34,123 nt of DNA. Source: a virus. Both the position numbers and the translations under genes were made by a program. The stretch lies in IMG/VR virus record IMGVR_UViG_3300010296_002331, positions 1 to 34,123 of that record; one strand, given 5' to 3'. Positions 1,737 to 25,791 of this stretch are shown piece after piece. Within the stretch, counting starts at the first letter, position 1, and each line of letters opens with the position of its first letter. Under the pieces are notes generated by a model, which saw nothing but the letters and a program-made list of their open reading frames with translations, was not told the DNA's origin and made no database searches.

Positions 1737-2090
1737 TTAATCTCCTTTTCCTGGGTTAGGTGAAAAATGTTCTATAAATTTGTAAGGAATGTATTCCCAT
1801 TCTTTAGCATCTGCTGGAACATCCTCTGCTCTTTTTTGTGTGATGTTTGGCCACTGTTGTGCATACGTTCTATTTATTTCTGTCCATTCTTCTTGCTCTG
1901 CTGGACCGAGTTCGCTGTCTTGTAATATTGCATCTACAGGACATTCAGGAACACATACTCCGCAGTCAATACATTCGTCAGGATCTATAACTAACATATT
2001 TTCGCCTTCGTAGAAACAATCTACCGGACACACTTCTACACAATCCATGTGTTTACATTTCACACAGTTATCAGTTACAAGATATGTCAT
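1737..2090 (-). CDS. fdxA: Seven-iron ferredoxin, FdxA type
   Basis: A 117-aa soluble electron carrier. The cysteines sit exactly as in 7Fe ferredoxins such as Azotobacter FdI: C9, C17 and C50 for the [3Fe-4S] cluster, and C21, C40, C43 and C46 for the [4Fe-4S] cluster. The long C-terminal tail (WPNITQK ... ADAKEW ... [10 protein letters not shown]) is the one seen in alphaproteobacterial FdxA, which points to the source and probably the host. All ligands are intact, so it should be functional. Start and stop overlap gp44 (TAATG) and nearly abut mazG, so it is a true operon member and not a contaminating insertion. Its redox partner is unknown; ThyX, the radical SAM enzyme at 32859 and host enzymes are candidates. 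Confidence 0.95.
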
Positions 2091-3004
2091 TACAAATTTG
2101 CCAGTTTAATTAGTGTGGCTGCTAAATTTATTTCAGGATCAACTACTAGGGTGTGATCTACAAGTCCTTGTTTAATTATGAGTACTGCTTTGTCTTGCTG
2201 TTCTTCACTGCCAAACAATTCAATATTATCATACAACCAACGATACACTTCTTCCATTTCTTCTGGACGAATAGCACCGCATAGTAACTTACGAGCTTCT
2301 TGGATTTTACCTGCTTTAAACAGTTCTACCATTTCAAGTTTCCAGTCGCTTTCGCCTGTGTCACCTTCATTAGGTTTAAGTAAACTGTTATCCTGCACGT
2401 TCATCTGCACCATATTAATACACTTACGCAGATCTGGATAGGTTGCTTTTACATATGTATCCAGTGTGTCTAAATCAGGTGATACTCCTTCAGTAATAAG
2501 TATCTCTGCTACTCTGGCTGTAAACTCTGTTTGGTCAATTTTAGCAATATGAAAGCCTTGACAACGAGAATGTATTGCCGGAATAATTTTGTTTGGATAG
2601 TTACACGTTAAAATAAAACGTGCCGTAGTATGATACTCTTCCATTACACCACGAAGTGCTGCCTGTGCGTTAGGTGACAAGTAATCAGCCTCATCTAGTA
2701 GTACCACCTTAAAGTCCCCAAATGGGATCATTTGTACAAAGTTAACGATCTTATCACGAACATCGTCTACTGAGTTTGTTCGCGATGCGTTAATCTCTAG
2801 TATATCTAAATCATTTAAGTCTAGCTCATTAAATAATAGTCTGGCAAGAGTTGTTTTACCGATACCAGCATTACCACTAAAAAGCAAGTGCGGAATAGTT
2901 TTATCTTTGATCCAAGTTTCTATTTGTTTCCTTTGTGCTTCGTCGCGGAATACATAACCGTCAACTGTTTTAGGACGATACTTTTCTACCCATAATTCTT
3001 TCAT
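2090..3004 (-). CDS. 44: Sliding clamp loader large subunit, gp44-like
   Basis: AAA+ ATPase that opens and loads the sliding clamp at primer-template junctions. Walker [10 protein letters not shown] lies at residues 44-52, Walker B LLDEADYL near residues 103-110, sensor 1 LTCN follows, and the SRC arginine-finger motif (HSRCQGF) is near residue 154. The N-terminal LWVEKYRPK is typical of the RFC small subunit/gp44 family. Length 304 aa is close to T4 gp44. In T4 this gene lies between clamp gene 45 and small-subunit gene 62; here its neighbours are PsiE-like and ferredoxin genes, and neither partner is in the window. It overlaps psiE by an ATGA and the ferredoxin gene by a TAATG. Confidence 0.95.
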
Positions 3005-3432: not shown

Positions 3433-3841
3433 TTTCTCTCTCTGCTATTCGTTTACGTAAATCACTAGAACTAAATCTGTGATCTCTTTTGTTAAAGTAC
3501 AGATCTATATCTCGTTGGCGACATATGTCTTTTCCAGTAAAGTCTTTGTCTCTATATTCTTCACCTAATATTCTAACATCAATATGATACATAGTCAAGA
3601 TATCTTCTAGATCTTGTTCAGTACCATACGGAATAATTTCATCTACATAGCCAACTGCTTTGAGCTGTGTATATCTTTCTACAATAGTTTGAATAGGTGG
3701 ATTTTTACTAGGACGATCTACACTAGGGTCCATTTGCAAACCCACCATTAAATAATCACATTGATCTTTTGCATCTCTTAGCATTTGAACATGACCTGCA
3801 TGAAGCATATCAAATGTACTACACGTGAATCCTACTTTCAT
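3419..3841 (-). CDS. TagD-like cytidylyltransferase family protein
   Basis: A 140-aa nucleotidyltransferase of the glycerol-3-phosphate cytidylyltransferase/adenylyltransferase-like fold. HAGH at residues 14-17 is the HxGH nucleotide-binding motif, and SSSDLRKR near residue 121 is the ISSTxxR-like C-terminal motif. It would activate a phosphorylated small molecule with CTP or ATP; the substrate is not determinable. A similar gene is widespread in marine T4-like phages. It starts four bases inside the exonuclease gene (ATGA) and overlaps psiE by 14 bases. Confidence 0.9.
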   Translation of the reverse strand: MKVGFTCSTFDMLHAGHVQMLRDAKDQCDYLMVGLQMDPSVDRPSKNPPIQTIVERYTQLKAVGYVDEIIPYGTEQDLEDILTMYHIDVRILGEEYRDKDFTGKDICRQRDIDLYFNKRDHRFSSSDLRKRIAERENESD

Positions 3842-4383
3842 CGTTGTTTAACTCCAAAATGTTTATAAGACTGTTGCACACACTTTGCTTGATAAAAGCA
3901 ATCTGCTAATGCGTTGTGCAAACTTTCTTGTATTGCTTTACGTGGATCTTGTGGCATCATAGAAAATAACGTACGGCTGTCTCTAATTTGCCAGTAGTTC
4001 CAAGGTGCAGGTTTTTCTGCACATTTATATAAATCTTGTAAAATAACAAAGTCAAATGTAGGACCTTGACACCAAATATAATCTAGTCCTACACACCATT
4101 TGTTTAATTGACGTAACATTTCTTGTACAGTGACTCTATCATCGTGATCGCCAAATGCTTCATCTTGTATTTCTTGTGGCTGCGTTGCCCACCAAGCAAG
4201 GGTGTTATCATCAATAGAACGTCCATATTGCTCTGATTGTTCTTCTACATCTCCTCGCAAGTATAATGGACTGTGTGGTTCTGCGTCAGTAAACGGATCA
4301 AACTTAATAGCACCTAGTGTCATTACAACACTATCAGGTTCTACACCTAATGTTTCTAAGTCTATCATTCCGTGTGTAGCCAT
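3838..4383 (-). CDS. dexA: DEDDh 3'-5' exonuclease, DexA/Rv2179c-like
   Basis: A 181-aa RNase H-fold exonuclease. Catalytic motif I is IDLETLG (D8, E10), motif II is GPTFDF (D111), and motif III is HNALADC (H156, D161), giving the full DEDDh set. The TLGAIKFDP strand after motif I and the NTLAWWATQ segment are typical of the phage DexA/Rv2179c-like exonuclease family. T4 DexA degrades single-stranded DNA; relatives act on RNA, so the substrate is open. The ATG overlaps the stop of the 54-aa membrane protein gene (TAATG). It is the second gene of the operon led by the promoter at 4569-4597. Confidence 0.88.
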   Translation of the reverse strand: MATHGMIDLETLGVEPDSVVMTLGAIKFDPFTDAEPHSPLYLRGDVEEQSEQYGRSIDDNTLAWWATQPQEIQDEAFGDHDDRVTVQEMLRQLNKWCVGLDYIWCQGPTFDFVILQDLYKCAEKPAPWNYWQIRDSRTLFSMMPQDPRKAIQESLHNALADCFYQAKCVQQSYKHFGVKQR

Positions 4384-4547
4384 TATTGTTTCCTGTTCTC
4401 TTGCCCTATACCACTAATAATTAAAAATATTGAAACTGCTAACCACCAAGGATTTAGTTGGCCCCAGATTACACCAACTAATAATGTTATGCCTGTAGCA
4501 CCAGTAGTGCCTATTCCGCTTGCATTTGTAAAATCGGGAAATTTCAT
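4383..4547 (-). CDS. Small membrane protein, 54 aa
   Basis: A short gene starting MKFPDFTNASGIG and ending GIGQENRKQ. It has two hydrophobic stretches, roughly residues 16-28 and 33-46, separated by a short GQLNPWW turn, so it is probably a two-pass hairpin membrane protein. The start is decided by a strong Shine-Dalgarno, TTAAGGAG, five bases upstream, and the stop forms a TAATG overlap with the exonuclease. It is the first gene after the promoter at 4569-4597, and its ribosome binding site is one arm of the inverted repeat there. No family recognised. Confidence 0.75.
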   Translation of the reverse strand: MKFPDFTNASGIGTTGATGITLLVGVIWGQLNPWWLAVSIFLIISGIGQENRKQ

Positions 4548-4552
4548 GAAAA

Positions 4553-4593
4553 CTCCTTAACTGTAAACATTATATGTTCAAACAGTTAAGGAG
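4553..4593 (-). repeat. 12-bp perfect inverted repeat overlapping RBS and -10 box
   Basis: CTCCTTAACTGT (4553-4564) is the exact reverse complement of 4582-4593. Nested inside, AACAT (4566-4570) pairs with ATGTT (4574-4578). On the minus-strand RNA the 3' arm contains the AAGGAG ribosome binding site of the 54-aa gene, so a transcript reading through from upstream would hide it. Initiation at the promoter whose -10 lies in the loop would give RNA with only one arm. Confidence 0.85.
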
Positions 4594-4597
4594 TCAA
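4569..4597 (-). promoter_or_regulatory. Sigma70-type promoter for the thyX-gp44 operon
   Basis: TTGACT (4592-4597) and TATAAT (4569-4574) on the minus strand, 17 bases apart. It faces the ten-gene operon below 4547. The -10 falls in the loop of the inverted repeat at 4553-4593. Confidence 0.8.
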
Positions 4598-4608: not shown

Positions 4609-5010
4609 TTATTGATTTATAAAAGAAGAAGGGTCTATATCGGCAGGGCCGTCACTAAATTCTTTGCCAATTTGCACACCGCTCGGTTTTTCATCACTCA
4701 TTGCAAGTATTGATTCTGTCTCTACCATGCGGATTTCTAATTCTTCGTTATCTACTTCTACTTTGAAGCCTCTGGTCCATCTGCCGTGTTCAACTAAAAT
4801 CCAGTCTCCTACGTTGTATGGGTCTTTATTTCTAGGGCCTTTATCAAAAACTTTACCCCATCTAGCATATACGCCATGAGCTTTACCGTCATCACTTTTA
4901 ATAATCAATCCACTTGCCGTAGTTTGATCACCAAAGTGCATATCCGATACTAATACTCTATCGCCTATTGCCTTTGGCTTGCCTTTAATAGTATTAACGT
5001 TAATTGCCAT
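4609..5010 (-). CDS. 31: GroES/gp31-like co-chaperonin
   Basis: A 133-aa protein resembling GroES and T4 gp31, which cap host GroEL and help fold the major capsid protein. After the N-terminal GDRVLVSDM strand comes a mobile-loop region, GDQTTASGLIIKSDD, then GxVxxxGP (GKVFDKGPR), VGDWILVEHGRW and a C-terminal LRM-like strand (LEIRMVETESILA), the same order as in GroES. It is longer than GroES by an acidic tail after about residue 105. The upstream gene stop overlaps this ATG region at 5010. It lies just upstream of the operon promoter at 4597. Function by homology of fold; specificity for GroEL is inferred. Confidence 0.85.
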   Translation of the reverse strand: MAINVNTIKGKPKAIGDRVLVSDMHFGDQTTASGLIIKSDDGKAHGVYARWGKVFDKGPRNKDPYNVGDWILVEHGRWTRGFKVEVDNEELEIRMVETESILAMSDEKPSGVQIGKEFSDGPADIDPSSFINQ

Positions 5011-5409: not shown

Positions 5410-5417
5410 TATTTATC
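5410..5417 (-). promoter_or_regulatory. T4-like late promoter octamer GATAAATA
   Basis: GATAAATA on the minus strand, overlapping the stop of the 182-aa gene. It is followed by a TAGGAG ribosome binding site and the ATG at 5387. It matches the [N]ATAAATA late consensus. Confidence 0.6.
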
Positions 5418-5961
5418 TCAAGAACTCTCTCCAATCCAGGTCATATTGGATTGAATTAATTCTGTGTACACCTATCAAATACAGCACATAACTTGCTACA
5501 CTTGATCCTCTACCTACTCCCCATACAATATCGTTCTCACGCATAAAGTCTACAAGATAAATCATATAGCGTAGTAGGTCTGTCATTCCACGTTCTTTGA
5601 ATGCTGCATATTCTTCACACACTCGTACATACTCTGGCTGTTCATCTAGTTCAGTTGTACCTAGTTTTTCGTGTAGTTTTGTTTTTAAATATGCAGGAAC
5701 GTTTAATTCTTTGTATTCATTAGGCATAAACCATTCACCCTGACATACACCGTCAAAAGTCTTTTGATCTACATCTAGTGGAATATATTTTTGTAGTGTA
5801 GGAAGTCCTTGTTCACTCATTGCTGTGTTAAACTTATCTACATCATCTGAAGGATCACATAGTACCACATGAACTTTATCCGTATGACCTGAATAAATCA
5901 TATCGATTAAGTCGCGATTAGAAAATCGTGGAATACCTAGTTCATCTGTTTTCATAAGCAT
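5413..5961 (-). CDS. Stand-alone fragment of DNA polymerase III alpha (DnaE-like)
   Basis: A 182-aa protein whose C-terminal third aligns with the start of the DnaE palm: a helix (LLRYMIYLVDFMREND), the glycine-rich GVGRGSSVAS at residues 148-157 (E. coli GPGRGSGAGS), then YLIGVHRI, YDLDWREFLR. In DnaE the catalytic PDFDVDF motif begins about eight residues after this point, but here a stop codon comes first and no continuation is found in any nearby frame. It therefore lacks the catalytic aspartates and cannot be a polymerase by itself. The N-terminal part (residues 1-110) is unlike known motifs. M3 (position 5955) is an alternative start; neither ATG has a clear Shine-Dalgarno. Possibly a nucleotide- or DNA-binding remnant kept for another job. 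Confidence 0.75.
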   Translation of the reverse strand: MLMKTDELGIPRFSNRDLIDMIYSGHTDKVHVVLCDPSDDVDKFNTAMSEQGLPTLQKYIPLDVDQKTFDGVCQGEWFMPNEYKELNVPAYLKTKLHEKLGTTELDEQPEYVRVCEEYAAFKERGMTDLLRYMIYLVDFMRENDIVWGVGRGSSVASYVLYLIGVHRINSIQYDLDWREFLR

Positions 5962-12214: not shown

Positions 12215-15200
12215 TATACTCTCCCTACTACAACTTCAATGACGCCACGGCCATCATCGTCTTTGTCTTGCAATGCTTTACCTATTACAGTTCCTACACT
12301 TGGCTGATTATCAACAATAGCGTATCCAGGTATTGAACTTGTAACTAGCAAATCACCTTTGCGAACCTTGCCTAATACTTTACATGGAACTCGACCTTGT
12401 AGTGCTACAGCAACCACGTGATCTCCTTCTAGTTTAGAGTTCATTAAGTGTGCTGGTTCAGTTGATACAATGCCTGCTACTCTACGATCACCTTTAGTGC
12501 TTGTAACTATTACTTCTTCTGTTCCACCAAATACTAAAACTGTACCAGGCTCATACTCTGCGTTTGCTAGATAGTTCTCAGCTAAGTCAGCGTATTGTGC
12601 TGACGTTGCCTTACCTTCAAATAGTGTAGCATATACAGTATTCCAAACATTGCCACTATCACCTAACGTTCTAGTGTTGTTGCCATCTGGAATAATACTG
12701 TTAGTTTCGCCGTTGAAGGTAATAGTATCACTGCTATCACTACCTAATGTAGTATTACCATTTACAGCAAAGTTGCCAGTAATGGTTCCGCCTGCTGTTG
12801 GAAACTTTGTATTAATCTGTGTTTGAATTGCACTTGTAACTCCGCCAACATAATTTAATTCTGTAGCAGTAGCAGTTAATGCAGTACCACCATATGTTAT
12901 ATTTGTAAAGTTACCTGTTACACCAAACACGTCTTGCCAACGCAAAGTACTAGTACCTATGTCATATGTGTTATTTGTATCTGGTACAAGAGCACTGCTA
13001 AATCGTGCGCCAATAGTAATACTATCTGCTGTAGCATCGCCTAGTGTGACGTTACCTTTTAGATTTAAATTATTTGCGTATATAGTATTGTATCGTAAAC
13101 TTGCTGTACCAATATCGTAAATGCCATCTGTGTCAGGCTTCAATCTTTCTTTTTCTACAAGTAAAGGAACAACACTGTCAGTAGTACCATCTTTAACAAA
13201 TATACCTACTTGACCTGCACTTGTAAAACCAGTGTTAGCACCTAAAGCAATACCTGTAGACGCAATAGTCTTTTCGTCATTGTCTTCTATAACTTTAGAA
13301 TAAATCCAATCAACTGCAAGTCTACTTTGATCATTATATGTAGCATTGTTATTTTGATAATAACCTTCAGCAGCGTCTGCGTTACCGATATCTAAACTTC
13401 CTGGCATTTCTATTATCATAGAACTGTCAGTGCCTTGTGCTGTAAATACAGTTGCCTGACCTGGTGTTTTAACATCAAGTCTAGTACCAGTCAAAGAAAG
13501 TATTTCGTAACTATCTGCGCCACCTAACTTTAAGTTATCAACTCTTATGCCGCCGTCGCTTTGTGTTCTAACTAAACTGTCTGCAGCACCAGTTGTAGTA
13601 ATGTCAATAGCACTTATATTGCCTGTTGAACCACTTACATTACCTAGTGCTTTGTTTGTAGCAATTTGTGGCAAGTCAGCAAAGTCGACATCATTTGCTT
13701 TTAGTGTTACCCAACCGTCAGTAACACTAAAGTCATCCGAGTCAAAACTTACTAAGCCTAAATCTGATTGTGAAATTCCACTAGCGTTTGCTCTTGTAGT
13801 AGCAGCATTCATAGCCAGTTTGCTTTGAGCAATAGCCGCTGATGCACTTACATCTGCGTTTTCAATACTGCCTGCTTTGTATGTTAAGGCTAACTCTGCA
13901 TCACTTGTATTTCTTGTAACAGTTATTGCAATTTCGTTATTAGTAGACTCAACACCGTTAGCAAGCTCATCAAACGGTCCGTCTAACACAGTGCCTGTAG
14001 GACCACCTGCTACTGTTAACACATCTCCGTCGGCTACAGAGCCACTAGTTGGAGTGTAAACAATTATAACAACATTGCCTAATATGTCATCTGAACCAAC
14101 TTGTGTATCTACAATAGTTCCTGCGCCACCGCTAGGAGCACCTGTAAAGTTTTGTCCTGCTGCAAAGTTGCCTACGCCACCAATGGTGTCACCGTCTACA
14201 AATACTCTCTTCTTGCCAGTAGTAACAAATAATTGTCCTGCAGTAACGTTAGGCATAGAGCTGTTAGTAACAGCAGTTGTTAGTGTGTTACGCAGTTCTT
14301 CGTAACTGTCTTGATTTGCTAATCGGCCGTCTACATATCCTTTGTTTGCAGCATCTGAATCTGATGTTGGAGTAGATATATTATTGATTTGATTACCGCC
14401 AACGTTCAAGGCGCCTGTCATTGTTTTACTACCGTCTAGAGCAACAACTCCAGGACCAATAATATTACCTACAGTATCACCTACATGGTCAAACCCTAAT
14501 CTTCTGTTTACATATCCTCTTACAGCACTTTGTACAGGTACTGTGTCTGGAGCATTGTTTACCATGCCATCGTCTGTACTAAATTCAGCAACAACAACAC
14601 CACGTTTAAATCCAATACCGTCTAAGTTTGAAAGTGCAATACTTGCACTAAATGTAACTGTACCAGTACCCTGGTCTACAACGAAGAATTTACCAACTCT
14701 AAATATACCATCTTGGTCTGTTGATACAAAGAACACTCTACCTTTACTGCGTTCTTCAGTTTCTTTAGATTGATCCGGAGTCCTTGGAAGACCTAAAAGT
14801 ACGTTAGGATAGTTAGAAGTATTAAATCCACCTGTACCAATATCTAGGAAGTCATGACCTGTAGCACGACAAGTTGAAATGTTAATAGTAATAGTTGCTG
14901 GTGCACCTGCCGGCAAACCCGCTCTTATGGTTACAGTGTTTGTACCTAACACTATACCAGTACCGTCGCCTCCTCTGAGTCCGACGCCCCTAGCTGGTTC
15001 GACTACATCACCGTCTGTAACATCACTTATTGTAATGTAAGCAAATGTTTCGCCGCCGGGTTCAACATAACTGTCAATTTGGTGTAGTTTACCGTTCCAA
15101 CCAAATATCATATCTCCATTGTTAAGTCTATCCTTTTCTGCATCTTCGGTAAGTTTCAATATAGCAATAGATCTATCGCCTTCGGTTGCACCTAGTGTAG

Positions 15201-22064: not shown

Positions 22065-22346
22065 CTATCTTTTTACAAAGTTAGAGAGAGTTTCAAAGTC
22101 TCTCTCTAACCTTGTTAACTTCCTTTCTAAAACATTTATCACTGATTTTTGATTATCAATTTGATTGCGTAAACTTTCCACATACTTTTGTGTAGGAAGT
22201 ATTCGTTGTACGCCATCCTCTCCTAGCAAGGTTATAGTATCAGCGCCTTGGCCTCTAATACCGCCTGCTACGCGATTTGGATTTTTATCAGTTGAAGGAG
22301 CGGCAGGTTTGTTACCCCTGCCATACATTTTATTCAAATAGTTCAT
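22065..22346 (-). CDS. Coiled-coil phage protein, 93 aa
   Basis: The N-terminal half is Gly/Pro/Asn-rich and flexible (MYGRGNKPAAPSTDKNPNRV), with ITLLGEDGVQRILPTQKYVE in the middle. The C-terminal 40 residues (LRNQIDNQKSVINVLERKLT ...) form a clear heptad coiled coil, so it is probably an oligomer. It follows the HNH gene on the same strand, and its stop is adjacent to the stop of the plus-strand EF-hand gene. Function unknown; a minor structural protein is the likely guess. Confidence 0.72.
   Translation of the reverse strand: MNYLNKMYGRGNKPAAPSTDKNPNRVAGGIRGQGADTITLLGEDGVQRILPTQKYVESLRNQIDNQKSVINVLERKLTRLERDFETLSNFVKR
22076..22114. terminator. Long hairpin between convergent genes
   Basis: GTTAGAGAGAG (22080-22090) is the exact reverse complement of CTCTCTCTAAC (22100-22110), with a 9-nt loop. 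The stem extends by three more pairs across one A/C mismatch. It lies just after the EF-hand gene stop and inside the 3' coding end of the coiled-coil gene. It lacks a proper U-tract, so a terminator role, most plausibly for the plus strand, is tentative. Confidence 0.5.
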
Positions 22347-24477: not shown

Positions 24478-25319
24478 CACCAGTGTTCTTTGCACCAAGG
24501 ATCGATACAATCTTTTGGATTGGGCTGGCCATGAAAGACTGCAACACTGGTTTGGGGTAAAATATGAGGTTGTCCGGGTTGTTCAAAATTTCGATTGCCT
24601 TTATGATCTCTTACAATCTTTGCTCTTTTTCGCATTTCCCATTTATAACTTTGTATCCATTCCTGTGGCCAATAATCATAGTTTGCGCGGACAGTGTGAT
24701 AAATCCAATCTTGATCGCCATGAAATCTTCTAACATGACTATTAGTATTTGTTAAGAAGTCGTTATAAACATGAGCTTGATCGCCTACTGTAAGCCTAAA
24801 TACTGAACTGTTAAACTTTAACCAGTCTGGCCTCATTGATCTATTAAAATCTTTTATAATACAAAATGTTCCTGGCTTGTAATCGAATAGATAATCTATG
24901 TTTCGGAATATAATAACATCTAAGTCAAAAAATAATATTGTGCCTTGTAATTGTAAGTTAGGATTAAAAAACATAGGTTTATACCACCAGCCTGCTACTG
25001 GCAATTCTGGTAATGGTTCTATGCGTATGTTTGTGTTAATTCCTTTACTGTTTTCGGTAAAACATACGAACTCAAATTCGTGTGTACAATGCCGCTGTAC
25101 CATACTGTGTAATGTATTAACATACTCAGCACCGTACTTGTCTCCGTGCTTCAAACATACAATGTATTTTTTATCATCAGAGGTTACACTTTCTTGCGGC
25201 GAAATCTGTGAGCTTACTACACTTTTTTGCGTCTTAGTATTCGCTTTTTTGTGCTGCCTTAACGCTCTAACTTTTTTCCACTCGTCTTTAGTAAACTGAT
25301 TTTTATCAATTTTTGCCAT
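24474..25319 (-). CDS. GT8-like glycosyltransferase family protein, 281 aa
   Basis: After a Lys-rich N-terminus (MAKIDKNQFTKDEWKKVRAL) comes the fold core: KYIVCLKHGDKYGAEYVNTL, FEFVCFTEN, a DxD-type metal site GTILFFDLDVIIF (D132 and D134 in this start), WLKFNSSVFRL, GDQDWIYHTV, and an FHGQPNP near the C-terminus. This order is that of nucleotide-sugar-dependent family 8-like transferases. Donor and acceptor are unknown. The longer frame back to 25394 would overlap queD by about 90 bases; the ATG at 25319 overlaps by only 14 and fits better. It is the second gene after queD and may decorate host or virion surfaces. Confidence 0.8.
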   Translation of the reverse strand: MAKIDKNQFTKDEWKKVRALRQHKKANTKTQKSVVSSQISPQESVTSDDKKYIVCLKHGDKYGAEYVNTLHSMVQRHCTHEFEFVCFTENSKGINTNIRIEPLPELPVAGWWYKPMFFNPNLQLQGTILFFDLDVIIFRNIDYLFDYKPGTFCIIKDFNRSMRPDWLKFNSSVFRLTVGDQAHVYNDFLTNTNSHVRRFHGDQDWIYHTVRANYDYWPQEWIQSYKWEMRKRAKIVRDHKGNRNFEQPGQPHILPQTSVAVFHGQPNPKDCIDPWCKEHWC

Positions 25320-25791
25320 CAGCAAAGGACATCTTTTGAGTTTGATAAGGAGTGTAGATTGCTGAATTTGCGCCGTGTTCGCTACACTCTGCACTTTCGC
25401 ACCAGCATCGTCCGTTGCTCATTTCACGTACAAGATTGTCTGCAAACTTCCATGCATGATATGCAAACTTTTCTGCACCTACTCCGTCAAATATACGTAG
25501 CTCTGCAAGTCCTTTTTCTTCTAGTGCTTTTAGTGTTTCTAGTTCAGGGTCCGCTGAGTCAACAGCAACTTTATGATCAAAACTATCTTCTAGCCATGCT
25601 TTAAGTGGTTTTAGTCCACCAAAGTCAACTGCCCAATTTTTTTCATCTAATTCGTTGCATCCAAATACAAATTTAAATGCAAGACTGTATCCATGTAATA
25701 AATGACAGTGTGAATGCATTGCCTTTGGTTGACGGAACACTGCTGATAGTCCAATGTTGTGTCCATATGTTTTTGTGCTAAAATGTGCCAT
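25306..25791 (-). CDS. queD: 6-carboxytetrahydropterin synthase-like (QueD/PTPS family)
   Basis: A 161-aa T-fold enzyme of the 6-pyruvoyltetrahydropterin synthase/QueD family, which acts on dihydroneopterin triphosphate on the way to pterins or to preQ0 and queuosine. SHCHLLHGYSLAFKF carries the catalytic Cys (C29) and a zinc His (H33); VDFGGLKPLKAWLEDSFDHK and a C-terminal CSEHGANSAIY complete the pattern. The second zinc His of E. coli QueD (HGH) is Tyr here (HGY), as in an alphaproteobacterial subfamily. No other preQ0 pathway genes are in the window. It has its own consensus promoter (25819-25847) and an AGGAG ribosome binding site. Confidence 0.9.
   Translation of the reverse strand: MAHFSTKTYGHNIGLSAVFRQPKAMHSHCHLLHGYSLAFKFVFGCNELDEKNWAVDFGGLKPLKAWLEDSFDHKVAVDSADPELETLKALEEKGLAELRIFDGVGAEKFAYHAWKFADNLVREMSNGRCWCESAECSEHGANSAIYTPYQTQKMSFADGKN

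Follow-up and report, generated by a model that had tools for sequence, protein, structure and literature searches.

The window analysed here, the whole 34,123 nucleotides of the viral record IMGVR_UViG_3300010296_002331, carries on its minus strand a promoter set between the arms of an inverted repeat. The element lies between a gp31/GroES-like gene and a chain of genes that begins with a 54-aa gene and continues with genes for an exonuclease, a nucleotidyltransferase, a PsiE-like protein and a clamp loader. The features of the locus, from upstream to downstream, are as follows:

5410–5417, minus: GATAAATA, a late-promoter-like octamer upstream of a 125-aa gene and the gp31-like gene; source of putative late readthrough RNA
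4609–5010, minus: gp31/GroES-like gene, upstream and co-directional; its stop codon lies 11 nt before the −35 hexamer
4592–4597, minus: −35 hexamer TTGACT, kept in nearly all relatives; its last three bases are the start of the 5′ arm
4582–4594, minus: 5′ arm ACTCCTTAACTGT, in the −35/spacer region; present in readthrough RNA only; covaries with the 3′ arm
4569–4574, minus: −10 hexamer TATAAT, in the loop
4566–4578, minus: nested pair of 5 bp, AACAT/ATGTT, closing a 3-nt loop
4552–4564, minus: 3′ arm ACAGTTAAGGAGT, at whose beginning transcription is predicted to start (near 4562)
4553–4558, minus: Shine–Dalgarno sequence (SD) AAGGAG of the 54-aa gene, within the 3′ arm; the ATG is at 4547–4545
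4548–4552, minus: U-rich tract TTTTC, from the stem to the start codon; terminator-like in most relatives
4383–4547, minus: 54-aa gene, product small and membrane-protein-like; first gene of the promoter-born operon; its stop overlaps the next start (TAATG)
3838–4383, minus: Rv2179c-like 3′–5′ exonuclease gene; the leading gene in many relatives, with its own SD in the hairpin
2090–3004, minus: sliding-clamp loader (gp44-like) gene, a member of the same chain, whose genes overlap or abut

The 54-aa protein has no Pfam or PHROG match and none among named phages, and its 50 relatives in IMG/VR share the near-invariant motifs GIGTTGATG and GIGQE; the exonuclease has more than 300 relatives. As the 54-aa stop overlaps the exonuclease start and the following genes overlap or abut, silencing of the first gene may spread downstream by translational coupling. 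Elsewhere on the minus strand, a 182-aa ORF (5413–5961) shows similarity to a bacterial PolIII alpha subunit over just a part of that protein. The ORF has a match in PHROG 11127, a short family with proteins of its size, and so it may encode a protein in its own right instead of being a broken gene. The window also encodes a QueD-like 6-pyruvoyl-tetrahydropterin synthase and a thymidylate synthase (25306–25791 and 91–762, minus), hinting at modified nucleotides or nucleotide supply.

Anatomy and predicted folding of the hairpin

The inverted repeat, described earlier as a perfect repeat of 12 bp, is real and extends to 13 bp (4552–4564/4582–4594). It is the longest in the window when loops of up to 60 nt are allowed, and it flanks the −10 of a promoter whose hexamers match 11 of 12 consensus bases (TTGACT at 4597–4592, a 17-nt spacer, TATAAT at 4574–4569). 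Of 20 windows simulated with a first-order Markov model, 1 reached a repeat of 13 bp; by itself, this length is only borderline against chance. The 17-nt loop between the arms holds the nested pair (4578–4574/4570–4566), just as the preliminary description had it, and the SD of the 54-aa gene is indeed part of the downstream arm on the minus-strand RNA (4558–4553). The same description placed the −10 exactly in the loop; it does lie there, although the nested pair takes in its outer bases. The 151-nt region has a minimum free energy of −33.3 kcal/mol (z = −2.8). No Rfam family matched above its gathering score, and an miRNA match far under that score (E 0.09) was discarded as chance. Two more perfect inverted repeats, of 11 bp and with short loops, occur at 13700–13731 and 22080–22110.

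When both transcripts were folded, the predicted SD accessibility in the window was 0.0004 in readthrough RNA and 0.25 in promoter-born RNA, the latter modelled as starting ∼7 nt after the −10 (near 4562, from promoter geometry), where the hairpin cannot form. Across 42 distinct elements, predicted accessibility was ∼0.00 in readthrough RNA and 0.03–0.79 in promoter-born RNA, compared with a median near 0.45 in readthrough RNA for 43 other sigma70-like promoters of one relative (G005). The preliminary description had proposed that readthrough RNA is silent for the 54-aa gene while promoter-born RNA is translated. The predicted folds, with the SD hidden in one RNA and partly open in the other, agree with this, as does the pairing kept in relatives; from these we infer the silence itself. 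The promoter-born accessibility of 0.25 is only moderate and counts against the explanation that we favour below.

Conservation and covariation of the arms

The same layout recurs at the homologous locus of IMG/VR contigs, with 37 distinct arm pairs. Upstream of the 54-aa gene or the exonuclease gene, whichever leads, the order is TTGACTCCT, arm, TATAAT, arm, AGGAG, often UUUUCUU, and the start codon. The arms vary from lineage to lineage (for example, CTCCTTAAC/GTTAAGGAG, CTCCTTGCTTG/CAAGCAAGGAG and CTCCTCTACT/AGTAGAGGAG), and because they vary, a search of viral contigs for the exact pattern of the window element found none; a search for near DNA matches in the phage collection was likewise empty. 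Thus, a structure that had been suggested for comparison with related genomes is found there, with its pairing kept though the arm sequence has changed.

Because the MAFFT alignment placed gaps within the arms, these were anchored at CTCCT and AGGAG before pairs were counted. At the seven positions beyond CTCCT/AGGAG, 88% were paired in the 37 distinct arm pairs, compared with 56% when 3′ arms were swapped between elements (maximum over 1000 swaps, 68%) and 27–48% when arms were slid. Sense-strand wobbles in these arm pairs were G·U in 25 cases and A·C in 3, which points to sense-strand RNA as the pairing molecule and is unexpected for an operator, a cruciform or an antisense RNA. Changes on both sides that keep a pair were numerous, with 60 at positions 5–10 by a parsimony count on the exonuclease tree, a rough figure given the many weak branches of that tree and possible swapping of the element.

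Relatives that keep the promoter but not the arms had been named as an observation that would speak against the proposal. They do occur in part: in L035, L054–L061, L103, L118, L124 and L142 the promoter is kept with weak or absent arms. Promoter and SD without good arms in some relatives indicate that the device is dispensable in some lineages and can be lost. In five further contigs (L078, L086, L100, L111 and L113), a tRNA-Arg, which needs no SD, lies behind the promoter at the same locus (near 2910–2987); there the hairpin arms are absent, and no other terminator was found between the upstream gene and the tRNA. Relatives of the gp31-like protein (L003–L014) lack an adjacent 54-aa gene, and the element travels with the exonuclease locus.

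A form-independent scan took in the window and nine relatives, with 177 sigma70-like promoters in all, and the expectation was obtained by swapping spacers between promoters. The enrichment of SD-hiding arms had first been seen in three genomes. SD-covering helices of at least 11 bp were present at 16 of the 177 promoters, where 0.82 would be expected and none of 100 swaps gave more than 4, and helices of at least 9 bp at 23, where 3.8 would be expected. Hairpin promoters abutted the preceding stop codon more often than the others (13/17 versus 66/160, P = 0.009) and more often had a late promoter within 3 kb (8/17 versus 23/160, P = 0.003), P values that are optimistic as the groups are small and include homologous loci. 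The exact form TTGACTYCT...AGGAG occurs essentially once per genome, at the exonuclease locus; the three extra matches are a coding-like one common to G007 and G018 and an arm-less promoter in G002. At other loci of the same genomes, the arm sequences are unrelated to it. In G001 (125573), G003 (185708, minus; L185:5708) and G008 (153622), and in weaker form in G004 (334665), a second conserved promoter-in-hairpin locus lies before a short gene whose product begins MTMHLVGPY or MTMSLARGL. On the comparative data, conservation with covariation, together with the genome-wide enrichment over spacer swaps, is the decisive evidence against chance.

Late promoters showed no such excess: none of 192 in the same genomes had SD-hiding arms of at least 11 bp, with 0.7 expected. 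A possible case of T4 polarity was seen in G003 (178484, minus; L184:18484) and G005 (124756, plus; L169:4756), where a late octamer lies between GTTTCCTAAG and TTTAGGAAAC arms that cover the SD region.

In unbiased 8-mer counts upstream of ORFs, GATAAATA was the top motif in G003, G005 and the window and the second in G004. All five copies in the window lie just upstream of ORFs on the minus strand (5417, 6809, 11893, 20261 and 28432). The octamer looks like a T4 late promoter in variant form; the octamer of T4 itself, TATAAATA, shows no enrichment in the window. G003, G004, G005 and the window share one arrangement: late promoters stand in a run before structural-type and chaperonin genes, this run stops upstream of the element, and the exonuclease/clamp-loader operon comes next. 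The labels 'late' and 'early' used here rest on motifs, promoter type, gene content and, in 4 of 10 records, a gp55-like late sigma factor. The element closes the late-promoter run and opens the replication operon; with the timing of the operons presumed on this basis, its polarity would be opposite to that of the T4 cases.

Terminator, operator and other readings

The most serious alternative is that the hairpin serves mainly as an intrinsic terminator for the late operon upstream and shares its sequence with the next operon's promoter for economy of space. The SD would then owe its place in the 3′ arm to its G-rich core, well suited as a stem base beside a U-tract. Base composition fits this reading: the 8 nt after the SD contain a mean of 4.9 T in hairpin promoters compared with 2.2 in the 160 others, and a d'Aubenton-Carafa-type score was above zero for 29 of 49 locus elements and 1 of 160 non-hairpin promoters. 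In the window, where the stem is followed by TTTTC, the score is a modest 7.1; a simple terminator scan did not list this hairpin, whose loop exceeds the limit of the scan. However, several relatives keep the stem without a U-tract (L016, L034, L036, L046, L053, L064 and L131), so that the SD pairing is the constant. Where the tRNA follows, the hairpin is lost with no other terminator in its place, and an interrupted stem with an apical part that holds the −10 is unusual in a terminator. We regard a mainly terminating role as possible but unlikely. Termination and a translation block are compatible, and termination may add to SD hiding rather than replace it. Late transcription probably also ends in part at the hairpin; both functions would insulate the operon, and either of them may dominate.

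The palindrome had also been suggested as a DNA operator, at which a dimeric repressor would cover the promoter. A dyad spanning a promoter is the usual operator layout, but the arm sequences differ widely while complementarity is kept, both among relatives and between loci of the same genomes, and the mismatches are strand-specific, G·U on the sense strand and not A·C. In addition, the SD is part of the arms in every case, and there are no arms where no SD follows. This makes an operator very improbable. We give as little credence to the stem as an RNase III-type processing site that parts the late from the replication message: the readthrough stem, of 13–19 bp with an apical extension, would suit such a site, but no feature is specific to processing, and the constant presence of the SD in the stem, with arms only at SD-bearing promoters, would be left without an explanation. 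A functionless chance palindrome, which the borderline length of the repeat might have allowed (13 bp in about one in twenty simulated windows), is refuted by its covarying recurrence in dozens of contigs and by the enrichment over swaps, and we consider its probability negligible.

Relation to T4 hairpins and proposed mechanism

Hairpins of this kind are known from T4 gene e, soc, 49 and I-TevI/mobE, in which the SD also lies in the 3′ arm, the promoter between or within the arms, and promoter-born RNA is without the 5′ arm (PMC3014915, PMC2988022); the leaders of e and 49 were inspected in this analysis. Synthesis from long transcripts of gene e is reduced 100-fold (PMC3014915), and all T4 genes described with this mechanism are late genes on early or middle messages (PMC2988022). 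In contrast, the promoter here is of the sigma70/early type, TTGACT-17-TATAAT, and not a late promoter of the TATAAATA type, and the gene behind it opens a replication operon that follows late genes, on the presumed timing. The analogy to gene e drawn in the preliminary description thus holds for the mechanics, with the timing reversed by the host-type promoter and by a replication operon downstream of late promoters. Further differences from T4 are the covariation of the arms, seen over dozens of lineages, the presence of several such loci in a genome and a U-tract after most stems.

Two other systems share parts of the design. In IS10 and IS50, the inverted repeat at the element's end hides the transposase start in readthrough RNA; these elements likewise have a host-type promoter inside, a hairpin that forms only in readthrough RNA and a translation block as insulation. 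Their arms are ends of a mobile element, whereas the arms here are promoter spacer and SD and are probably not mobile, and no transposase or element ends were found among the annotated genes at the hairpin locus. Intrinsic terminators share a stem base richer in G+C followed, in most copies, by a U-tract; they differ from the element, which has a promoter in the loop, the SD as stem base and some copies without the U-tract. By clamp loader, the nearest named phages are the PA5oct group (56% identity). PA5oct itself was rejected as a carrier, as at the homologous junction its chaperonin gene is followed at once by the clamp loader, and no promoter separates the two. Within the collections and literature searched, we know of no studied phage that carries the element, and the literature searched yielded no marine precedent and no promoter–terminator–SD precedent.

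We consider it probable that the element is a cis-acting insulator, a superimposed promoter and RNA hairpin that would confine expression of the replication operon to transcripts of its own promoter and shut out late readthrough. RNA that begins at the GATAAATA promoter at 5417, passes the late-type operon of the 125-aa and gp31-like genes and enters from upstream would carry both arms, and its fold would pair the SD AAGGAG with CTCCTT, leaving the 54-aa gene and the overlapping chain untranslated. A host-type sigma70 polymerase at TTGACT-17-TATAAT would start RNA near 4562, inside the 3′ arm, and this promoter-born RNA, without the 5′ arm, would have its SD exposed. The replication operon would then be expressed from its own promoter only, while late readthrough RNA stayed silent; in most copies, the stem and U-tract would probably also terminate part of late transcription. 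We infer from sequence where transcription starts, when each operon is active, that readthrough RNA is silent and that coupling carries this silence downstream. A broader reading, to which we give about even chances, is that a boundary element of ∼50 bases is three things in one, a terminator of the late operon, a promoter of the replication operon and a lock on leftover late readthrough RNA, and that a clade of uncultivated T4-like phages employs it at several loci, its timing the inverse of that in T4.

Such a design would fit an insulator, made of a promoter, an SD lock and a probable terminator, into ∼50 bp, and the covariation supports a promoter-embedded riboregulator from comparative data alone. 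For a large group of uncultivated T4-like phages, it would mean that the logic of T4 is reversed, with replication genes kept silent on late messages at several loci.
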